The translations under genes were made by a program, and so were the position numbers. 64,000 nucleotides of DNA. It comes from Thalassotalea sp. PS06 (lineage in GTDB: Bacteria > Pseudomonadota > Gammaproteobacteria > Enterobacterales > Alteromonadaceae). Position 1 is the stretch's first letter. Each line of letters begins with the position of its first letter. Positions 1 to 10,111 of the stretch are shown here, one piece after another. The DNA lies in assembly GCF_007197775.1 (NCBI RefSeq), contig NZ_CP041638.1, positions 2,418,001-2,482,000 on the forward strand, read 5' to 3'. Below the pieces are notes generated by a model that was given only the letters and a program-made list of their open reading frames with translations, did not search any database and was not told the origin of the DNA.

Positions 1-1806
1 AGCATATCCCTTACAGAAAAAGGTGAGCAACACCAGACAGAGATTATCGACTTGCTTTTTTCATATCTAAGAATGTTAACCGAGGATGGTATTCAGGAAT
101 TATATTTCAATGAAAAGAGAGCGCTCACTGAATTCGCTTTTAACTATAAAGAAAACAGTAAACCTCTGGAAAACGTCAATCAGCTCGCCATTAATATGCA
201 ACATTATCCGGAGCAGGATTATATTTATGGCGATTATAAAATAAAGGCGTTTAAACCCGATTTATTGCGTAAATTTCTAGCCTACTTTACCGCCGAAAAT
301 ATGCGGGTGATGGAAATTCGTAAATCAGTAAATACCGATCGCGTCAGTCGCTGGTATCAGACTCCGTATCAAATGCAACAAATCCCGCCTCTTAAACTTC
401 AGCGTTGGCAACAAGCCGAGGTTTACCATGAGTTAACACTTCCCAAAGCCAATCCATTTATCGTTGAAAAGCCGACAATCTATTCGGGTGAATCTACAGC
501 AACCCCCGAGAAGGTTCGTCAGCGTACCGGATTTAATTTTTGGTTTAAGCAAGATAAAACCTTCCGCTCTCCAAAAGGACAGGTGTTCGTTAGCCTTGAA
601 TCTCCCTACACCATAGCATCGGTAAAACAGATTGCGATGACACGATTATTTGTAGAGTTATTTAGTGAATCGGTACAAGAGCAGAACTATCAGGCAGAGC
701 TCGCGGGTATCCACTACCAGGTCTATTCTCACCAAGGTGGCATTACCATACAAATTTCCGGGATCAGTGAGAAGCAGCCTTTGTTGCTGGATAACTTACT
801 GCACGCGGTTTGTGACCACTCTTTACCGCTCGAGCGTTTTCAATTATTTAAAAAACAGCTGATTAGTAATTGGCGTGATGTGACCAAAGGTAAACCTGTT
901 TCACAGTTATTTAGTCTTCTCAATGCCCTATTTAAACCCTACAGTCCGCACGCATTAGAGCTAGCAGATGCAATGCAGGACGCAGGTTTTGATGAATTTC
1001 GCGAATTTTGCTCAATCTTATTTTCGCAACTTAGCGTTGAAGCTTTCGCATATGGTAACTGGCCTAAGAAAGAAGCCATAAATATGGCGGATAAAATTCA
1101 AAACCACTTAGGAGGCGCGATGAAGGCAACCGCTCTGGTACATCCCGAAATCATCGATTTTAATTCCGCCGCTCCTGCAAGGTTCGTAATTGACATTGCC
1201 GAAGATGAAAACGCCTGCGTAGTTTACTTTCCGATGCCATCTAATGATTTTCAAAGTAAAGCACTGGCAATTTTGACCAGTCAAATGATCGCTCCGATGT
1301 TTTTTCATCAACTGAGAACGGTCCGACAACTCGGTTATCTTGTCGGTGTAAATTACATGCCGATGAATCGCTTCCCGGGAATCGCGTTTTTTGTGCAATC
1401 TCCGAACATAAGCGCAGAAATTTTAGCGGAGGAAATATTTGCCTTTTTACAACGCTTTTCCACCCATACTGAAATGGAGAACTGGGACAAAATACAGCAG
1501 GGCATCATCAACCAATTAGATGCCAAAGACACTAGCCCGAGAATACGAAGTCAACGATTCTGGCATAGTATTACCAACCATGATTACGAATTTAATAATC
1601 GCAGCATCTTAAAGAAGGAAGTCTCACAACTGCACAAACAGCAGGTGATCGACTTTATTGATAACCAATTAACATCTGATAAAGGTTTACAGCCAGTTAT
1701 CCTTACCACCAATAAAAAGGGAACCACGTCGGCGGGCGATTCAGCACCTGCTCAGGTGTTCACCAATATTAAGTCCTTTCACAACCATTATTCACTGAAA
1801 TATTAA
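1..1806 (+). CDS. Insulinase/pitrilysin-family (M16) zinc protease, C-terminal part, cut by window edge
   Basis: The reading frame is open from the first base, so the true start lies outside the window; about 600 residues of the C-terminal half are present. The catalytic HxxEH zinc motif lies in the N-terminal domain of M16 enzymes and is not in view. Family marks seen are the late segment with RTVRQLGYLVG (substrate-clamp region of insulysin and pitrilysin) and the final stretch with FWHSITNHDYEFNN. Such enzymes degrade small peptides, usually in the periplasm or cytoplasm. A gap of 165 bases separates it from the next gene, so the two are probably separate transcripts. It could also be a coenzyme PQQ synthesis F-like relative, but length and motifs fit pitrilysin better. 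Confidence 0.88.
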   Translation, partial: SISLTEKGEQHQTEIIDLLFSYLRMLTEDGIQELYFNEKRALTEFAFNYKENSKPLENVNQLAINMQHYPEQDYIYGDYKIKAFKPDLLRKFLAYFTAENMRVMEIRKSVNTDRVSRWYQTPYQMQQIPPLKLQRWQQAEVYHELTLPKANPFIVEKPTIYSGESTATPEKVRQRTGFNFWFKQDKTFRSPKGQVFVSLESPYTIASVKQIAMTRLFVELFSESVQEQNYQAELAGIHYQVYSHQGGITIQISGISEKQPLLLDNLLHAVCDHSLPLERFQLFKKQLISNWRDVTKGKPVSQLFSLLNALFKPYSPHALELADAMQDAGFDEFREFCSILFSQLSVEAFAYGNWPKKEAINMADKIQNHLGGAMKATALVHPEIIDFNSAAPARFVIDIAEDENACVVYFPMPSNDFQSKALAILTSQMIAPMFFHQLRTVRQLGYLVGVNYMPMNRFPGIAFFVQSPNISAEILAEEIFAFLQRFSTHTEMENWDKIQQGIINQLDAKDTSPRIRSQRFWHSITNHDYEFNNRSILKKEVSQLHKQQVIDFIDNQLTSDKGLQPVILTTNKKGTTSAGDSAPAQVFTNIKSFHNHYSLKY

Positions 1807-1971: not shown

Positions 1972-4900
1972 GTGCACTTTACTAACAATAACAAAATGCA
2001 TGCTAGGCATGTGCCGTTTCTCCAGCGCCTTATTCTGTTTCTTGGCTTGTGTCTGAGTGTTGTTGCCTATTCCGAACAGCCGCCTCTTAAATTCCAACAA
2101 ATCTCGGTAGAACAGGGATTATCTCAAAGTACCGTTATGTCCTTAGCTCAGGATCAGGATGGCTTTATTTGGATGGCCACCCAATATGGTCTAAATCGTT
2201 ATGATGGATATGAATTTACCCATTTTAAATACCACTCTGACGACCCCTTCTCCTTAGCTAATAATATTGTTCGCAATGTGTTTGTTGACAGCAATAATGT
2301 GCTTTGGGTGGGCACCGACAACGGCTTAAGCCGTTATGACGCAGATAACAATCGCTTTGACAATTTTTTCCACGAAAAAGGCAACGCCAACTCTCTTCGC
2401 GACAACACGATATGGAGCATTTACGAGGACAGAGCTAATAACCTCTGGGTATCGACGGCCTCAGGATTACATAAATACAACGAAAGCACTGAAGATTTTA
2501 CCGTTATTAATTTCAAAAGTTACAGTAGTGTTGTTAAAGCCATTAAAAGCATTTTCCAGGATAGTAAAGGTAATTACTGGTTAGGCACATACGAAAACGG
2601 TTTGTTCGTAATGAACAAGGATTTAGATTTCGTATCTCCGGCCAATGGTAAAAATGTCTGGAAATTAAACATTGATGCTCAGTCGATTCTGGAAATTAGT
2701 GAGCTGAACCAGAAGATCTGGCTGGCAACAGAAAACGGTATTTTTGCAATCGATGAAGATATCACCGTCGCCGCGCACTATTTGCCTCAGAACTTCACCC
2801 AGGAGCCTGGGAATAATCGAGTGCGTAGCATTCATCAAGTCGATGACCGGTTTTTATGGCTTGGCACAGAGGCTGGTTTACTGGAGCTGGACTTAGTAGA
2901 TGAGCGTATCTATTTTCTCGAGTCTGCAGCTTTCAATACAAATGAAGTAACCAAAGACTTTATCTTTACCATATTTAAAGACAACTCCAATTCCTTGTGG
3001 TTAGCAACTTACTACGATGGAGTGAGTCGATATAACTCTATATCATCATTATTCACCCACCATTTATCAGGTAGTTATAACGATAAGAAAAATATCAAAG
3101 CTTTTACCGAAACGCCGGATGGCAAAATTTGGATCGCTTCTGAAAGTAATGGCATTTACTTTCAGTCCGTTAACTCAACGATTGTTGAGAAGTTGGATAT
3201 TGACTTAGAAGAAACCATATCCTCAATTCACGCAGACGCTAATATCCTTTGGATAATTACCAACAGCGAAAGATTATTAAGCTTTAACATCGATACCTCT
3301 GAATTAAATGTTCATGAGAATTGGCTGCAAGGTTATACAGAACAGCACGGCAGACTTGATTACATTTACACCAAAGGCGCTTTTTGGTTTGGCTCTTCGG
3401 CTTCCAAGCTATTCAAATATTCGCCACAGGAAAAACGTTTACAAAGCTTTTCCCTAGCATCCGATAAAATGAATGACTTGTATGCGATTAACGTGGACGA
3501 AAATGCCAATATCTGGACCTATACCTCACAACAGGAAATCTTTCTTTTTGATATCGATAAAAAAGAGTTTCAACCATTAAAACTGCCGAAGAACAATCTT
3601 TTCCTGGATGACTCAATTACAGTGATTCAGGAATCGGCAGACTACTACTGGTTCGGCTTTGATGACAAAGGTGTGGCGGCTTTAAACAAGGCTACTGACC
3701 AATATACCTATTTCACCGAAGCTAATGGCCTTGCCAGTAATAAAGTAGCGGGTATGTTGATAGACGAAAACGGAAAAGCCTGGGTAAGTACCAACAAAGG
3801 AATATCGAGTCTAAATCCGATCGTTCAAAAAGCCGAAAACTTTAATGTCAACCAAGGTGTGCAAGCTGATGAGTTCTTTTCATTCTCCTACTTAAAAGCC
3901 ACAGATAATAAATTTTATTTCGGCGGTGTGAATGGCTTTAATAGCTTTTTCCCATACAACATTAAGTTAGAATCTGAAGTGGTTAATTCACCAAGAAATA
4001 TGCATTTACTGATTGCCAATGAAAGGGTCGATTTACAAAATGTTTTGAACACGCCTGATCAGCAAACAAACAATAAGCAATTATATCTATCTAAGGACAT
4101 CACCTTAAAATATGGACAATCACCATTTAGCCTTGAATTTGTTTCACCGAATGCGACCTTCTCAAGTGCCGTTAAATACCGCTACAAGATGGAAGGCATC
4201 GATGATGCTTGGGTATACACCGACTCCACCAACAAAAGGGCTACGTATACCAAATTAAATCCGGGTAGCTATGAGTTCCATGTCCAGGCATTCAGCTCTA
4301 ATTCTCAAGAGTACAAAAGCTCTCCAACATTGACCGTAAACATTTTGCCGCCATGGTGGTTAACCTCCTGGGCCTGGATGGCTTATGGCTTTATCCTGGT
4401 GTCGATAATGCTCTATTTCTATCGCCAGGCTCAGCAAAAGCAATTAGTTAATTACCAGATTAAAGAAAGTGAAGAGCGCTTAAAGCTTGCCCTATGGGGT
4501 TCTGGTGATGAGATGTGGGACTGGAACATTAAAACCGGTCAGATGTTCCGCTCTAATATCTGGGGCATCCTTGACTTCCCTCAGGATGGACAGCGAAATA
4601 AACAAGGTGCGTCCAATAAAGGTAACATTCATCCTCAGGATTCGAACCGTGTTAACCAGGCGCTTGACGATCACTTCATGGAAAAAACCGACCATTTTGA
4701 AGCTGCTTACAGGGTTAAAAATAATCAAGGTAAATGGACCTGGGTATTAGACCGAGGAAAAGTGGTCGAAAGAGATATCAATAATGCCCCTTCACGTATG
4801 ACGGGAACGATTAAAGATATTTCTAAAATCAAACAAACCGAAGAAAGCCTGAAATTATTTGCAAAATGTATTGCCAATATTTCCGACGCGGTTGTGGTTT

Positions 4901-6522
4901 ATGATGAAGACTTTAACACTGTCGACTGTAACCCTTCTTTCCAGCGAATTACAGGTCAAACCCGTTCAGAAGCAATCGGCAGTCCGTTAGAATTTAAATC
5001 GTACCCTCACAGTTTCTTGCAAAACCTCAAAAAGAATCTGATTCATCACGGTTCCTGGCAGGGAGAAATCGAGAGCAAACGCTTAAATGGGCAGCGTTAT
5101 CTTGTTGATATCACCATGGATGTTATCCGTGATGAAAACCAGAAGATCACGCACTATGTTGGCGTGTTCTCGGACATTACCAAACGTAAAGAAACCGAAA
5201 AAGAACTGCGTAAACTTGCCAATACCGATACCCTTACCGGTTTGCCAAATCGTTCTTACTTCCAGACTAACCACACCATTCTTGTTAATCAGGATACGGT
5301 TCATGCTTTACTTGTGTTTGATTTGGACAACTTTAAGAAAATCAATGACTCATTAGGTCATCAGATTGGTGATGTATTGCTGTGTAAAGTTACCGAACGC
5401 ATTGCAACCGTGGGTAACCTTAAAGATACCTGTTATCGATTAGGCGGAGATGAATTCAGTTTAATCATCGAAGGTACCAACGATCTACACGAAATCACCA
5501 CCATTGCCGATGAAATCTTAAAGGCGGTGGCCGAGCCATATAATATCCGTAACCAGGAAATTGCCCTTTCCTGTAGTATCGGTATCGCCTTATTCCCGGA
5601 AGATGGTAAGAATTCCCATGAATTGCTGAAGAATGCCGATACGGCTATGTATCACGCGAAAGACAAAGGCGGCGATTGCTATCAATTCTTTAATGATTCA
5701 ATGAACACTCAGGCGGTTAAACGTTTACAAGTGGAAAACTTAATTCGTCACGGCTTAAAAGAAGATCTGTTCAGTGTGTTCTATCAACCGAAGATCAATA
5801 TCACTACCGGTAAAGTTAGCGGTATGGAAGCTTTGGTAAGATTTGAAGCCGGCGCCAAAGGCATTATTCGCCCAGATATCTTTATTCCGATTTCCGAAGA
5901 AACCGGACAAATCATCGAAATTGGCGAAAACGTTTTACGAAAAGCCTGCCATGCGACAAAAGTATGGGTTGATAAGGGCATTTTCAATGGCAGAATTGCG
6001 GTGAATCTCTCCGCAGTGCAATTCAGACAGCCAAACCTGGTTAAGATGATTGAGTCAATTCTGGCAGAAACACGTTTGCCAGCTCAGTATCTGGAGTTAG
6101 AAATAACCGAGGGCACAGTCATGAATTCGCCGCAGGAAGCGATTGATACCATGCATCGTTTGCGAAGCATGGGCATTAGCCTGTCACTTGATGATTTCGG
6201 CACCGGTTATTCTTCGCTCGCCTATCTGAAGAAGTTCCCGCTGAATACGCTTAAAATCGACAAAGCCTTTGTTGATGACATTGAAGCTTCTGAGCAAGGT
6301 AAAAACATGGTAGCAACCATCATTACCATCGCCCATAACCTTGGCTTGGATGTGGTCGCCGAGGGTGTAGAAAACCAAAACCAGCTCGATTATTTAAAAT
6401 CCAAACAATGTGAACAGCTGCAGGGTTATTTATATTCTAAACCTCTATCTGAGGAAGATTTTAGTCGCTATCTGTTATCACACATTATCACCCGGGAATC
6501 GACCCCCTACTCTACTGAGTAA
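1972..6522 (+). CDS. Membrane sensor with Reg_prop beta-propeller, Y_Y_Y, two PAS, GGDEF and EAL domains
   Basis: A 1516-residue signalling protein that probably makes and/or breaks cyclic di-GMP. In order: a signal peptide (to about residue 35), two-component-regulator propeller repeats (about 40-700, recurrent WxGT/WxAT blades), a Y_Y_Y domain (about 725-790), one membrane segment (about 795-817), two PAS domains (about 835-1085), GGDEF with intact GGDEF at 1158-1162, and EAL with EAL at 1286-1288 plus DDFGTGYSSL and AEGVE. Both catalytic signatures look intact. The GTG start at 1972 follows AGGG at the right spacing; an ATG at 1996 would give a shorter, equally exportable signal peptide. 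The propeller should sit in the periplasm. A strong terminator follows. Confidence 0.93.
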   Translation: MHFTNNNKMHARHVPFLQRLILFLGLCLSVVAYSEQPPLKFQQISVEQGLSQSTVMSLAQDQDGFIWMATQYGLNRYDGYEFTHFKYHSDDPFSLANNIVRNVFVDSNNVLWVGTDNGLSRYDADNNRFDNFFHEKGNANSLRDNTIWSIYEDRANNLWVSTASGLHKYNESTEDFTVINFKSYSSVVKAIKSIFQDSKGNYWLGTYENGLFVMNKDLDFVSPANGKNVWKLNIDAQSILEISELNQKIWLATENGIFAIDEDITVAAHYLPQNFTQEPGNNRVRSIHQVDDRFLWLGTEAGLLELDLVDERIYFLESAAFNTNEVTKDFIFTIFKDNSNSLWLATYYDGVSRYNSISSLFTHHLSGSYNDKKNIKAFTETPDGKIWIASESNGIYFQSVNSTIVEKLDIDLEETISSIHADANILWIITNSERLLSFNIDTSELNVHENWLQGYTEQHGRLDYIYTKGAFWFGSSASKLFKYSPQEKRLQSFSLASDKMNDLYAINVDENANIWTYTSQQEIFLFDIDKKEFQPLKLPKNNLFLDDSITVIQESADYYWFGFDDKGVAALNKATDQYTYFTEANGLASNKVAGMLIDENGKAWVSTNKGISSLNPIVQKAENFNVNQGVQADEFFSFSYLKATDNKFYFGGVNGFNSFFPYNIKLESEVVNSPRNMHLLIANERVDLQNVLNTPDQQTNNKQLYLSKDITLKYGQSPFSLEFVSPNATFSSAVKYRYKMEGIDDAWVYTDSTNKRATYTKLNPGSYEFHVQAFSSNSQEYKSSPTLTVNILPPWWLTSWAWMAYGFILVSIMLYFYRQAQQKQLVNYQIKESEERLKLALWGSGDEMWDWNIKTGQMFRSNIWGILDFPQDGQRNKQGASNKGNIHPQDSNRVNQALDDHFMEKTDHFEAAYRVKNNQGKWTWVLDRGKVVERDINNAPSRMTGTIKDISKIKQTEESLKLFAKCIANISDAVVVYDEDFNTVDCNPSFQRITGQTRSEAIGSPLEFKSYPHSFLQNLKKNLIHHGSWQGEIESKRLNGQRYLVDITMDVIRDENQKITHYVGVFSDITKRKETEKELRKLANTDTLTGLPNRSYFQTNHTILVNQDTVHALLVFDLDNFKKINDSLGHQIGDVLLCKVTERIATVGNLKDTCYRLGGDEFSLIIEGTNDLHEITTIADEILKAVAEPYNIRNQEIALSCSIGIALFPEDGKNSHELLKNADTAMYHAKDKGGDCYQFFNDSMNTQAVKRLQVENLIRHGLKEDLFSVFYQPKINITTGKVSGMEALVRFEAGAKGIIRPDIFIPISEETGQIIEIGENVLRKACHATKVWVDKGIFNGRIAVNLSAVQFRQPNLVKMIESILAETRLPAQYLELEITEGTVMNSPQEAIDTMHRLRSMGISLSLDDFGTGYSSLAYLKKFPLNTLKIDKAFVDDIEASEQGKNMVATIITIAHNLGLDVVAEGVENQNQLDYLKSKQCEQLQGYLYSKPLSEEDFSRYLLSHIITRESTPYSTE

Positions 6523-6541: not shown

Positions 6542-6572
6542 AAAAAAGCGAGGCTTCTAGCCTCGCTTTTTT
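6542..6572 (+). terminator. Rho-independent terminator of the GGDEF/EAL gene
   Basis: A perfect stem GCGAGGC/GCCTCGC with loop TTCTA, flanked by a run of A before and T after. It lies 20 bases after the stop codon and isolates the downstream sigma-54 cassette from read-through. The A and T runs could let it act in both directions. Confidence 0.92.
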
Positions 6573-6635: not shown

Positions 6636-6652
6636 TTGGCACAGCTTTAGCA
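6636..6652 (+). promoter_or_regulatory. Sigma-54 (RpoN) promoter -24/-12 of the repeat-peptide cassette
   Basis: TTGGCACAGCTTTAGCA matches the RpoN consensus TGGCAC-N5-TTGC, with the invariant GG (6638-6639) and GC (6650-6651) at the correct 10-base interval. The predicted start is near 6663, about 38 bases before the ATG at 6701. It stands in the only intergenic space before the cassette. A sigma-54 promoter needs an activator of the NtrC type; one such activator gene (flrC) is in this window, but nothing here links it to this promoter. Confidence 0.75.
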
Positions 6653-6700: not shown

Positions 6701-7210
6701 ATGCTTAGCTCACTACTTTTATCTGCAGTTATCTCTGCGGCTACTCTACCTGCAATCGAAAACCAGGAAGTATTTACTCCAAAAAATACCGTTAATACCC
6801 GTATTCGCATCAAGCCTACAGTTAACACTCGTATTCGCATCAAGCCTACGGTAAACACTCGTATTCGCATCAAGCCTACGGTAAACACTCGTATTCGCAT
6901 CAAGCCTACAGTTAACACTCGTATTCGCATCAAGCCTACAGTTAACACTCGTATTCGCATCAAGCCTACGGTAAACACTCGTATTCGCATCAAGCCTACG
7001 GTAAACACTCGTATTCGCATCAAGCCTACAGTTAACACTCGTATTCGCATCAAGCCTACAGTTAACACTCGTATTCGCATCAAGCCTACAGTTAACACTC
7101 GTATTCGCATCAAGCCTACAGTTAACACTCGTATTCGCATCAAGCCTACAGTTAACACTCGTATTCGCATCAAGCCTACAGTTAACACTCGCATTCGCAT
7201 TAAAGCCTGA
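6701..7210 (+). CDS. Tandem-repeat basic protein, 14 x TVNTRIRIKP, unknown function
   Basis: I do not recognise this 169-residue protein. Residues 1-18 are hydrophobic (MLSSLLLSAVISAATLPA) like a short export signal but lack the usual basic start. After a linker, residues 30-169 are 14 exact 10-residue units TVNTRIRIKP (the last ends in A), giving about 42 positive charges. In each unit Ile alternates with Arg/Lys, a pattern suited to beta-strands or a beta-solenoid. The frame is supported by an AGGA ribosome site, the upstream sigma-54 promoter, and the fact that base differences between units (ACA/ACG/ACC, GTT/GTA, AAC/AAT) are silent only in this frame. It is followed at 10 bases by two tiny peptide genes, apparently in one operon. 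It could be a RiPP-like precursor, a cationic antimicrobial, or a surface/DNA-binding protein. Confidence 0.72.
   Translation: MLSSLLLSAVISAATLPAIENQEVFTPKNTVNTRIRIKPTVNTRIRIKPTVNTRIRIKPTVNTRIRIKPTVNTRIRIKPTVNTRIRIKPTVNTRIRIKPTVNTRIRIKPTVNTRIRIKPTVNTRIRIKPTVNTRIRIKPTVNTRIRIKPTVNTRIRIKPTVNTRIRIKA
6788..7207 (+). repeat. 14 tandem copies of a 30-bp unit
   Basis: Fourteen head-to-tail 30-bp units fill this stretch with no spacers. Units 3, 4, 7 and 8 carry ACG GTA where the others carry ACA GTT (unit 1 has ACC GTT), so variant pairs alternate in a roughly 120-bp higher order, as expected from duplication of blocks. All changes are at third codon positions of the plus-strand gene. Confidence 0.97.
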
Positions 7211-7220
7211 GGAAACGGCC

Positions 7221-7325
7221 ATGATCGCTAAAATCAAAACACTACTTAGCAACAAAAGCCAAACAAAAAAAGCTATTACCGGAATTGAGATCAAGGAAAT
7301 GCCAGCTAACCACTGGTGGTCATAA
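7221..7325 (+). CDS. 34-residue peptide ending in ANHWWS (first of a pair), unknown
   Basis: A small gene with a GAGG ribosome site ten bases after the repeat gene. The peptide has a basic N-terminal half (seven Lys within residues 4-25) and ends with IEIKEMPANHWWS. The last 13 residues match those of the next small gene at 10 of 13 positions, including the final ANHWWS, while the N-terminal halves differ. A variable leader with an invariant aromatic tail is what one expects of a processed, modified or receptor-recognised peptide, but no modifying enzyme or exporter lies beside it. I do not recognise the family. Confidence 0.75.
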   Translation: MIAKIKTLLSNKSQTKKAITGIEIKEMPANHWWS

Positions 7326-7336
7326 GGAGTAGAGCC

Positions 7337-7438
7337 ATGATTAACATGATTAAATCGATTTTTAACCCAAGTTCACGCAAGCCAACCGTGGCTAATATTG
7401 AAATGATGGAAATGTCAGCGAATCACTGGTGGTCATAA
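7337..7438 (+). CDS. 33-residue peptide ending in ANHWWS (second of a pair), unknown
   Basis: It starts 11 bases after the first peptide gene, with a strong AGGAG site. The sequence begins MINMIKSIFNPSSRK and ends IEMMEMSANHWWS. The C-terminus is shared with the upstream peptide (I-E-x-x-E-M-x-A-N-H-W-W-S) and the codons of the tail differ at some third positions, so the protein sequence rather than the DNA is being kept. It is the last gene of the sigma-54 cassette. Function unknown; candidates are a RiPP precursor, a signalling peptide or a small membrane-associated effector. Confidence 0.75.
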   Translation: MINMIKSIFNPSSRKPTVANIEMMEMSANHWWS

Positions 7439-7477: not shown

Positions 7478-7505
7478 CGTGTGCCCTGGAATACAGGGTT
7501 ACACG
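7478..7505. other. Stem-loop downstream of the peptide cassette
   Basis: Arms CGTGTGCCCTG and CAGGGTTACACG pair with one bulge around loop GAATA. There is no T run after it on the plus strand, so it is not a classic terminator, but it may protect or end the cassette transcript. It overlaps the stop codon of the opposing small frame at 7499. Confidence 0.5.
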
Positions 7506-7765
7506 TAGATCAAACTGTAAAAGGTTCCGTGCTGTCGATATACAACCAGTCGCTTTTCCATATTAAACATTGGCCAGACTAATGGGCCAAATATCAAGCC
7601 AGCAGTAGTCCAACGCTTATAACCTAAGCCTGACTTGATTGCCTGACAATAAAAAACAATCCGCTTAGTAGTGACACAACAATTAGCATGAGGACCATTT
7701 AACGCACCTTTAATATCTAAACTGGAAACACCTTTGAAAAGAGGGCTGAATTGTAGCAAAAACAA
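7499..7765 (-). CDS. Small hypothetical protein, 88 residues
   Basis: A possible small gene converging on the peptide cassette. The C-terminal half looks protein-like: KSGLGYKRWTTAGLIFGPL then VWPMFNMEKRLVV, a hydrophobic stretch between basic flanks that could be one membrane segment. The N-terminal 35 residues are less convincing and the true start may be further in. I see no clear ribosome site. It could be a non-coding open frame; confidence is low. Confidence 0.35.
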   Translation of the reverse strand: MFLLQFSPLFKGVSSLDIKGALNGPHANCCVTTKRIVFYCQAIKSGLGYKRWTTAGLIFGPLVWPMFNMEKRLVVYRQHGTFYSLIYV

Positions 7766-7984: not shown

Positions 7985-10111
7985 TTAATAACAAGTCTTA
8001 TCATTATCTGCCATAGCGACTAATGCTTCACACGGCGCAAAATGCTCACCATACTGGCTCTGGAACTGATTAAGTTTTTCAACCACAGTTTTCGCCCCTA
8101 AGCTGTCCAGATATCGGAATGGACCGCCAAGGAATGGCGGGAAGCCGATACCAAAAATGGTACCAATATCACCATCACGACAATTGCGAATAATTCCTTC
8201 ATCAAGACAGCGTACGGCTTCGTTAACCATCAACAAAACACAACGTTCGCTAATTTCCTGTTCAGAAAACTTAGCTTGTGGCGTCACATTCAACAGGCTA
8301 TACACCTGCTCATCAACCGCCTTGCCTTGCTTTGATTTTTTACCGGTATAAAGATAAAAACCTTTTTTGGTTTTCTTACCCTTACGGTTGTCATCAATTA
8401 GTTTATTGAAAGCTTCTGGCGCGCGGAATCGTTCGCCAAGCTCTGCTTCTAAGATTGGGCTGATCTTGGCGCCAATATCAATACCAACCTCATCAAGAAG
8501 TTTGATAGGCCCGACCGGGAAGCCAAAATTAACTAAAGCGCGATCAATCTTTTCAATCGGCTCACCGGATAACAGGATATTCGCCGCTTCATTTACATAG
8601 GGCGCGAGGATCCGGTTAACGTAAAAACCAGCTTTATCTTTCACAACAATTGGTGTCTTGCCTTGTTTTTTAGCAAGCGCCACAGTGGTTGAGATAGTTT
8701 CATCAGAAGTTTTATCGTGGGCAATAATTTCAGCCAACGGCATTTTATCCACTGGCGAGAAGTAATGCAGACCAATGACATTTTCCGGCGCCTTGGCATT
8801 GGCAGCAATCTGACCAATCGGTAATGATGATGTATTTGAGGCGAAAATTACCCCTGGTTTGCAGTTTGCTTCAATATCCGCAACCATTTGCTGTTTTAAC
8901 GCCAAATCTTCAAATACCGCTTCAATAATAACATCGGCTTGTTTGAAACCGCTGTAATCGGTAGAACCGCTGACCATGTTCAGCTGTTTTTGCATTACAC
9001 TTTTCTTGATAAAGCGGCGTTTAACTTTCTTGTTTAATAGGTCAAAGCTGTACTTCAGCGCATTGCTGATACCGGTATGATTGATATCCTTTATACGCAC
9101 TGGCAACTTGGCATTATTTACCGTTACATAAGCGATACCACCACCCATTAAGCCGCCGCCTAGCACGCCAACGTGATTTACATCCGCTGGTTCAACGCCG
9201 TCAACGCCTGTTTCTTTCTTCATTTCCGTAGTTGCGAAAAACAGATTACGTAGCTGCTTTGATTCATTGGTTTTAACCAAACGACCAAAATGCTCGGCTT
9301 CACGAGCCAAACCTTTGGCACGGCCCTTTTCAATACCAACGCGAATCGCATCAATAATTTTTAATGGTGCTGGGTAATTGCCTTTGGTTTTAGACAATAC
9401 CGTTTTTGTCGCCTGATCGAATACTAATTTACGACCCCATGGATTTGAGTCCAGGGCTTTTTCGACAAATGGCGCTTTACGCTTTTTCGCTTTCTTGCCA
9501 CTTAGTGCTAACTCTTCTGCCACTTTCAACAGGACAGAACGAGGCACCATATCGCTGACAAGACCGGCTTTCAACGCCTGTTTCGGACGCAGGTGCTTCC
9601 CCGTTAGCATCATATCTAAAGCTTTTTGCAAGCCAACGATTGCTGGCAGGCGTTGAGTACCGCCACTACCTGGTAACAAACCAAGTTGCACTTCCGGTAA
9701 ACCTAGAACGGTTTTGTTGTCATCACTACAGACCCGTTGATGACACGCCATCGCTAACTCCAGACCGCCACCAAGGCACGGTCCATGAATGGCGGCGATT
9801 ACCGGGATGGATAGTGCTTCAATCTGATCAAAGATTGCCTGCCCCTGAGCGGCAATTTCTGTCGCCTGCTCTGCAGTATCACAGGCGTCAAGCATAGTGA
9901 TGTCTGCACCAGCAATAAAGGAATTATCCTTGCCACTGTATACCACCAATCCTTTAATCGAATTATCACTTTTAATTTTTTCAAGGACGGTGGAGAATTC
10001 ATCGGCAAATTCGGCGCGCAATGTATTCATGGTCTCCCCGACCACGTCCATTTTCAAAAACGCTATGCCGTTATCCTGGCGCTCTAGGGTAAATGTTGAA
10101 TTATTTTCCAT
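7985..10111 (-). CDS. fadJ: Fatty acid oxidation complex alpha subunit (enoyl-CoA hydratase / 3-hydroxyacyl-CoA dehydrogenase)
   Basis: A 708-residue bifunctional enzyme of beta-oxidation. The N-terminal crotonase domain (about 1-190) has the oxyanion segment GAD near 68-70 and the two catalytic glutamates in GGGLELA (E118) and LPEVQLG (E140). The dehydrogenase part begins with a Rossmann motif [11 protein letters not shown] near 317 and has [15 protein letters not shown] holding the catalytic His near 450, then two C-terminal HAD domains. It hydrates enoyl-CoA and oxidises L-3-hydroxyacyl-CoA with NAD, handing the product to FadI encoded 5 bases upstream. The length and pairing with fadI favour FadJ over FadB. 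It is probably repressed by FadR through the operator upstream of fadI. Confidence 0.96.

Follow-up and report, generated by a model that had tools for sequence, protein, structure and literature searches.

Gene Organization of the Locus

The analysed DNA, hereafter the window, is a stretch of 64,000 nt from a genome of 3.8 Mb represented by one contig. Two neighbouring small genes on its forward strand encode peptides ending in two tryptophans, called here WW peptides. WW peptide 1 (34 aa, MIAKIKTLLSNKSQTKKAITGIEIKEMPANHWWS) is encoded at positions 7221..7325 and its paralogue, WW peptide 2 (33 aa, MINMIKSIFNPSSRKPTVANIEMMEMSANHWWS), at positions 7337..7438; both were recognised as ORFs and by a family profile. 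The length of WW peptide 2 is counted from ATG; in the ORF list it is 40 aa, with a GTG further upstream taken as the start. A ribosome-binding site precedes each ORF; that of WW peptide 1, whose gene starts 10 nt past the repeat gene, adjoins the stop codon of the latter. The twin genes for 34 and 33 residues described in the original prediction are thus confirmed by the ORFs, their ribosome-binding sites and the relatives found in other genomes. The common tail with silent base changes is real as well: 10 of the 13 tail residues are identical in the two peptides, and three synonymous codon pairs (GAG/GAA, GCT/GCG and AAC/AAT) encode the shared residues E, A and N.

The repeat gene (6701..7210, forward strand) encodes a protein of 169 aa, which, according to comparison of its N-terminus and core with those of relatives, consists of a hydrophobic conserved N-terminus followed by tandem repeats of the PTVNTRIRIK type. 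The repeats are encoded by a 30-bp tandem array found with TRF (6787..7208, forward strand; 14 copies, 96% matches). Further upstream on the same strand lies the gene of a sensor of about 1516 aa (1972..6522), in which Pfam models identify a Reg_prop beta-propeller, Y_Y_Y, a transmembrane (TM) segment, two PAS domains, GGDEF and EAL, and which is the probable receptor. Reg_prop and Y_Y_Y both exceed the Pfam cut-off, as in an HTCS-type periplasmic sensor domain, and the periplasmic part has profile matches to the solved domains 4a2l, 3v9f and 3ott (best 1.9e-120). We take these three to come from hybrid two-component sensors of Bacteroides with oligosaccharide ligands. To our knowledge, the ligands of c-di-GMP proteins with Reg_prop/Y_Y_Y are mostly unknown. 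The GGDEF and EALVR motifs of the window sensor are intact. Among the 95 sensors read, the EAL motif is present in all 95 and GGDEF in 91; the four sensors that keep EAL and lack GGDEF (L218, L219, L220 and L222) all belong to family f20, and this is a pointer to phosphodiesterase output in them.

The locus is flanked by two syntenic neighbours: the C-terminal part of an M16 (pitrilysin/PqqF-like) peptidase (52..1806, forward strand; Pfam, synteny) and the convergent fadJ gene (7985..10111, reverse strand; NCBIfam NF008363), which forms the downstream boundary of the module. Of 94 other loci, 84 have FadJ; the M16 peptidase was found in 66 of 81, counting those loci in which the sequence before the sensor extends for 430 nt or more. 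The misses include loci at contig ends, those of family f16 and that of G004, which has moved. A small membrane-protein gene (about 65 aa) at 7501-7690 on the reverse strand is conserved beside fadJ in relatives; in the window its frame looks broken in comparison with them, perhaps owing to a sequencing slip.

The WW Peptide Family

A profile built from 25 members matched, at E ≤ 0.01, sequences in 85 of the 395 genomes searched from the bacterial family, representing 20 of 52 genera, although four of the matches (E 0.002-0.006; G604, G022, G503 and G585) may be due to chance. The search for homologues in relatives that had been proposed with the original prediction thus revealed a family, and matches spread over so many genomes indicate that the similarity of the tails is not accidental. 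A search with a single WW peptide sequence also found relatives in the genus and the family. No Pfam or NCBIfam model exceeds its cut-off with the WW peptides; it had been supposed that no described family has this tail, and these two collections indeed name none.

Conservation was analysed in 85 peptides from 76 genomes, including the window, after three unrelated ORFs had been dropped. As a family, the peptides are characterised by M-[IL]-x-x-[IF]-K-x-[LI]-F ... E-x-x-A-x-x-W-W. The tail alanine is present in 85/85 peptides, with all four Ala codons in use, and the glutamate three positions before it in 81/85. The ANHWWS tail was initially considered invariant; however, the exact hexamer occurs in only three of the 85 peptides (two in the window and one in G012), plus one copy in T. 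litorea, and its N and H are freely replaced by other residues. The N-terminal halves, which seem unlike when only the two window peptides are compared, also prove to be conserved across the family (K6 in 78/85 and F9 in 76/85). The Trp-Trp C-terminus is a genuine family feature, found in 74/85 peptides, but it is not universal: it is missing in 11/85, and also in G493, which is outside this set. Members with other ends (AKSL, ATSL, KSLWS, SDLGK and TKGW) are conserved elsewhere in the sequence (L107, L108, L111, L112, L105, L101, L115 and L110). On the sensor tree, most of the members without Trp-Trp group together in a single clade, and two or more cases lie outside it. Codon comparison of 17 sister pairs chosen by the author revealed 109 synonymous against 56 non-synonymous changes. 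Judging by these data, the twin peptides are real genes under protein-level selection, and they belong to a micropeptide family that has no Pfam or NCBIfam model and is marked by a conserved Ala-x-x-Trp-Trp end.

Two copies of the WW gene were found in nine of the 76 genomes, all from the genus of the window. By eye, each pair consists of the same two types, which suggests an old duplication. Outside the bacterial family, the WW peptide occurs in four genomes of family f20 (MINQLISWITGKPKVIKVQLPEGFDQLEVIQANRWWA type). A class-wide profile search matched three of 369 genomes, among which G000 and G015 are real; the match in G937 (E 0.005, within a 351-aa frame) was taken as chance. In an order sample of 295 genomes, 12 matches were obtained and 11 are credible, the one in G208 (E 0.0098, within a 326-aa frame) being set aside as chance. 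A scan of contig collections gave six loci, in which the named relatives are Thalassotalea and Thalassomonas; the Gemmataceae locus L066, judged from its DNA, looks like a chance match. As a DNA pattern alone, the motif matched 79 of 394 genomes in the order, and for this reason it was not used as evidence and most of its matches were left unfollowed.

The short length of the WW peptides, their conserved two-Trp C-terminus and their occurrence as a paralogous pair could mean that they are themselves a secreted or modified product, either RiPP-like or a leaderless signal. This is highly unlikely. Neither a modifying enzyme, the presence of which nearby had been anticipated, nor an exporter could be recognised in the neighbouring genes that were read (M16 peptidase, the sensor, the small membrane protein, FadJ/FadI and MoxR). 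The arrangement of a variable leader and a conserved core, proposed in the original prediction, does not hold, as both peptide ends are conserved; nor is there the conserved leader with a separate variable core expected of a RiPP precursor. In addition, the gene is retained in the 11 members that have lost the WW end, and no signal peptide can be seen in the WW peptides by eye. The precursor reading in fact belongs one gene further upstream: what is variable and signal-like here is the adjacent repeat protein.

The two consecutive TGG codons close to the stop codon also bring to mind an attenuator, that is, a regulatory leader peptide. TrpL, the leader peptide of the trp operon, is short and contains tandem Trp, and the WW peptides resemble it in both respects; unlike TrpL, they have no operon downstream and are conserved at the protein level. 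There is no same-strand gene following them, the next genes being convergent, and no terminator-like site was found on the forward strand after the peptides up to position 8050. Given also that selection acts on the protein and that some members have no WW, the attenuator explanation is scarcely credible.

Predicted Promoter and Operon Structure

A sigma-54 -24/-12 type element, TGGCACAGCTTTAGC, is located at positions 6637..6651 of the forward strand, 64 nt before the ATG of the repeat-protein gene, and was recognised as a pattern conserved across the loci. Between the sensor gene and this element, a scan found an intrinsic terminator-like hairpin of 14 pairs with a T tail (6542..6572, forward strand); this feature, which is only a consensus match, would set the peptide operon apart from the sensor gene. 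The GG-N10-GC pattern is present upstream of the precursor gene in 45/45 loci. When the gene start was chosen independently, TGGYMY-N7-GC was found in 87/88 loci against 0.41 expected from single-base shuffling; the single miss (G010) is a wrongly picked ORF, and the element is visible there in the other locus survey. Since one of the precursor surveys used the sigma-54 site to locate the genes, only the 45/45 and 87/88 counts test the site. A palindromic activator site upstream was also considered and set aside; palindromes occur in 6/88 loci versus 0.7 expected and differ in kind and position.

The repeat gene and the distal WW genes apparently form a sigma-54 operon. In 76 loci, the gap between the precursor and WW genes is 8-17 nt in 55, 6 nt in one and 19-57 nt in 15, and the genes overlap in five. 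The Shine-Dalgarno core begins within the precursor stop codon in 44 of the 76 loci, for example, ATCTAGGAG. Most WW genes thus appear to be positioned for translational coupling to the precursor.

The Repeat Protein and Its Variable Core

The repeat protein is probably a multi-copy precursor of an exported peptide. Cross-species comparison indicates that its N-terminus is conserved although the repeat, or core, sequence differs by species. Among 69 genomes with multi-copy precursors, 64 distinct cores were found; with the rougher single-copy picks included, the count is 86 in 91, and because 22 of these 91 are such rough picks, distinctness is counted on the 69 multi-copy ones. In T. litorea, the nearest of the named relatives, the unit is TVNRRIRIKP instead of the TVNTRIRIKP of the window. 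The core 8-mers were picked by a rule requiring a terminal [RK][ILVMFY], so the conserved core ends are partly a matter of construction; independently of this rule, 65 of 94 precursors terminate exactly in [RK][ILVMFY]. A species-specific peptide within a conserved precursor frame is what characterises secreted peptide signal systems, and it is found here.

In the lineages with WW peptides, the precursor N-terminus is hydrophobic and uncharged. The N-termini of 75 WW-type precursors have small residues at positions 4, 8 and 12 (S4 in 71/75, small at 8 in 75/75), and this small-xxx-small pattern may reflect the packing of membrane helices. In genera that lack WW peptides, the same slot, behind the same promoter type, contains precursors of 47-68 residues, for example, MLKAYAVALVLSTSAPV... 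Their variable ends are single (GNGIGF, KPKTGGIVW, CECGIITY), double (GVRAGTVRF) or triple (ALKPRGSIRT). Three single-copy precursors, from G137, G255 and G152 (L211, L216 and L212), carry two cysteines in the variable C-terminal part (CECG, CRCG and PCKWLNACP), possibly giving a disulfide-closed peptide. In family f16, where the genomic context is different, the precursor begins with MKSLVLASTLVLSLVAGSAMAA..., which in this one lineage resembles a textbook signal peptide by eye, and continues with WRKIKF/WRKIDI-like repeats. As far as these comparisons indicate, the signal region, promoter and sensor are constant across the wider form of the module while the peptide changes.

The charge of the precursors (median net charge +8 beyond residue 20 and +3 for the core in the WW lineages) would suit an antimicrobial module, in which the repeat protein frees cationic antimicrobial peptides and the WW peptides serve for self-protection. 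Antimicrobial peptides usually diverge fast between species, which fits such a module as well. Nevertheless, we consider it rather improbable: several of the variable ends lack a strongly basic character (PGNGIGF, SGNNGFGMWGF), the precursor is linked to the sensor and was lost together with its propeller, and lineages without WW peptides keep the precursor, so the WW peptide is not a needed immunity gene. The tandem repeats, the sigma-54 type promoter and the EAL neighbour might alternatively point to a c-di-GMP-regulated surface or biofilm component with the WW peptides as its chaperone. The single-copy precursors of the sister genera, about 50 aa in length, are too short for a structural protein of this kind, and the repeat sequence is not conserved, which makes a matrix role very improbable.

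Inheritance of the Module

A sensor profile matched 27 of 247 genomes of the order at E ≤ 1e-90, and in 24 of the 27 the promoter and precursor follow the sensor. All 11 credible WW-positive genomes of the second order sample (n = 295) fall within those 27. The three sensor genomes without promoter and precursor are G016 (L225, L155), which has a full-length sensor orthologue on a long branch of the tree with neither sigma-54 site nor precursor behind it, and G037 and G109, whose sensors are distant and likewise lack both. By an independent pattern, seven of 95 loci (G016, G025, G049, G094, G203, G214 and G431) have no precursor; by the sigma-54-guided survey, only G016 has none, and the start in G431 is doubtful. 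Five loci (G183, G436, G451, G642 and G652) have no sensor frame by the pattern used; despite this, G183 has the sigma-54 site and precursor, and G436 has the WW peptide.

Two genomes illustrate the movement and loss of the module. In G004, the sensor, repeat gene and WW peptide are found together at 3.27 Mb; the former site between M16 and fadJ, at 1.21 Mb, contains none of the three. In G001 (L244), M16 and fadJ are kept, and between them lies a 753-aa sensor remnant with intact GGDEF and EALVR motifs and without the propeller; the sigma-54 site, precursor and WW peptides are missing from the old site along with the propeller. This co-loss associates the peptides with the propeller and not with the cytoplasmic part of the sensor, although it is one event. 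Three genomes of the same genus, G001, G002 and G011, have neither a WW peptide nor a propeller match; G002 is 78% and G011 is 87% complete. The linkage to the repeat protein and to an RpoN site, a check suggested with the original prediction, is therefore conserved, and the sensor, promoter, precursor and WW peptide appear to be inherited as one unit.

Precursor Charge and Covariation

At 76 of 94 loci, a WW peptide is present and the precursor has no K/R in its first six residues; at 17 of 94, the WW peptide is absent and the precursor has K/R there. The sole exception, G017, has a contig break, and its WW gene is on another contig. With G017 set aside, the association corresponds to approximately two changes on the sensor tree, which makes it a lead and not proof.

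In partial Mantel tests on 68 genomes, core distances followed those of the propeller given GGDEF-EAL (r=0.339, p=0.002) and did not significantly follow GGDEF-EAL given the propeller (r=0.060, p=0.206). The M16 peptidase was used as a control (52 rows, 49 of them verified as M16). Given FadJ, the core-propeller correlation was r=0.388 and the control core-M16 correlation r=0.334; core-propeller given M16 was r=0.347, and core-M16 given the propeller r=0.178 (p=0.010). In the 47 complete rows, given PAS, GGDEF-EAL and FadJ, the values were 0.417 for core-propeller, 0.257 for core-M16, 0.341 for WW-propeller and 0.350 for M16-propeller; with M16 and the propeller both in play, core-propeller was 0.362 and core-M16 0.130. 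The core thus tracks the propeller better than it tracks M16. However, M16, which has no known tie to the propeller, tracks the propeller nearly as well, and the covariation therefore shows no specificity. As proof of ligand-receptor pairing it looked good at first and then turned out to be little above the M16 control.

The WW peptide itself showed no residual covariation with the precursor N-terminus (r -0.115) or the core (r -0.010), which speaks against its being tuned to either. WW distances track those of the propeller (r 0.406 given the other regions, 0.313 with M16 also removed). This result bears on the possibility that the WW peptides modulate the sensor, binding PAS-GGDEF-EAL or the membrane linker and giving feedback when the operon is on. 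The WW peptides have no visible signal peptide, always accompany the sensor in the order samples and are gone where the propeller is gone (G001), all of which agrees with such a role. Against it, there is no significant residual covariation of WW with the TM linker, PAS or GGDEF, and that with EAL is weak (r 0.118, p 0.053); the M16 control likewise tracks the propeller (0.350); and G001 retains PAS-GGDEF-EAL yet has no WW peptide. In the WW-negative lineages, the sensors are orthologous over their full length and presumably work without a WW peptide. On balance, modulation of the sensor is unlikely, but it deserves to be taken seriously.

Proposed Mechanism

The best explanation, to which we give an even chance, is that the twin peptides play an accessory part in a module for peptide signalling, in which the repeat peptide would be read by the propeller and the reading expressed as c-di-GMP turnover. 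According to this scheme, the sigma-54 promoter would drive the repeat protein and one or two WW peptides apart from the sensor transcript, for which the sequence evidence is strong. The hydrophobic N-terminus would then export the repeat protein, which would be cut into several copies of about 8-10 residues, mostly basic and species-specific. The periplasmic beta-propeller/Y_Y_Y part of the upstream-encoded sensor would sense the peptide, as its linkage and co-loss suggest, and the domain composition implies that binding may alter GGDEF/EAL activity and hence the c-di-GMP level.

The part of the WW peptides in this scheme is the most speculative. They may be cytoplasmic, translationally coupled to the precursor, and may aid its handling or targeting at the membrane: the basic amphipathic WW N-terminus would compensate for the positive charge missing from the precursor signal region, and the conserved Ala-x-x-Trp-Trp end might dock on a conserved partner. 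With low confidence, escort of the precursor is the likeliest single WW role, and modulation of the sensor is its main rival; as the WW peptide covaries neither with the precursor N-terminus nor with the core, the escort role is not favoured by these tests.

Beyond the twin peptides, the larger find is a conserved sensor-linked module of the sigma-54 type in marine bacteria, comprising a species-specific repeat peptide and a WW micropeptide partner. Its fullest interpretation is a Gram-negative pheromone: a multi-copy peptide of 8-10 residues under sigma-54 control with the propeller GGDEF-EAL protein as its direct receptor, converting kin identity into c-di-GMP, and with the co-translated WW micropeptide dedicated to partnering either the precursor or the receptor. 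We regard this as a tentative proposal whose chances fall a little short of even. If it is true, the genome of each species encodes a candidate ligand beside its receptor, so that dozens of ligand-receptor pairs could be tested with short synthetic peptides.

Comparison with Known Systems

A literature search, with most subscription papers and bioRxiv preprints outside its scope, found neither such a module nor multi-copy peptide pheromones coupled to c-di-GMP in Gram-negatives. A peptide-signal module with WW helpers may be a form of cell-to-cell signalling not yet described.

Among the known systems closest to the module are Xanthomonas c-di-GMP proteins with Reg_prop/Y_Y_Y, which carry the same periplasmic domain types on c-di-GMP enzymes; the function of the domain is called unknown there, and the passages on these proteins mention no peptide precursor (PMC6637768). 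The hybrid two-component sensors represented by 4a2l, 3v9f and 3ott share the Reg_prop propeller and the Y_Y_Y periplasmic domain with the module sensor; unlike them, the latter has PAS-PAS-GGDEF-EAL as its output instead of a histidine kinase/regulator, and is linked to a peptide precursor.

Gram-positive pheromones and the yeast alpha-factor are made from short precursors with a conserved export region and a species-specific peptide, often in tandem copies. The module resembles these systems in its short precursor with a conserved, probable export region and a species-specific, often tandem peptide, and in having a probable receptor gene adjoining. It differs from them in being Gram-negative, in its periplasmic beta-propeller on a GGDEF-EAL enzyme, in its sigma-54 type promoter and in the extra WW peptide.
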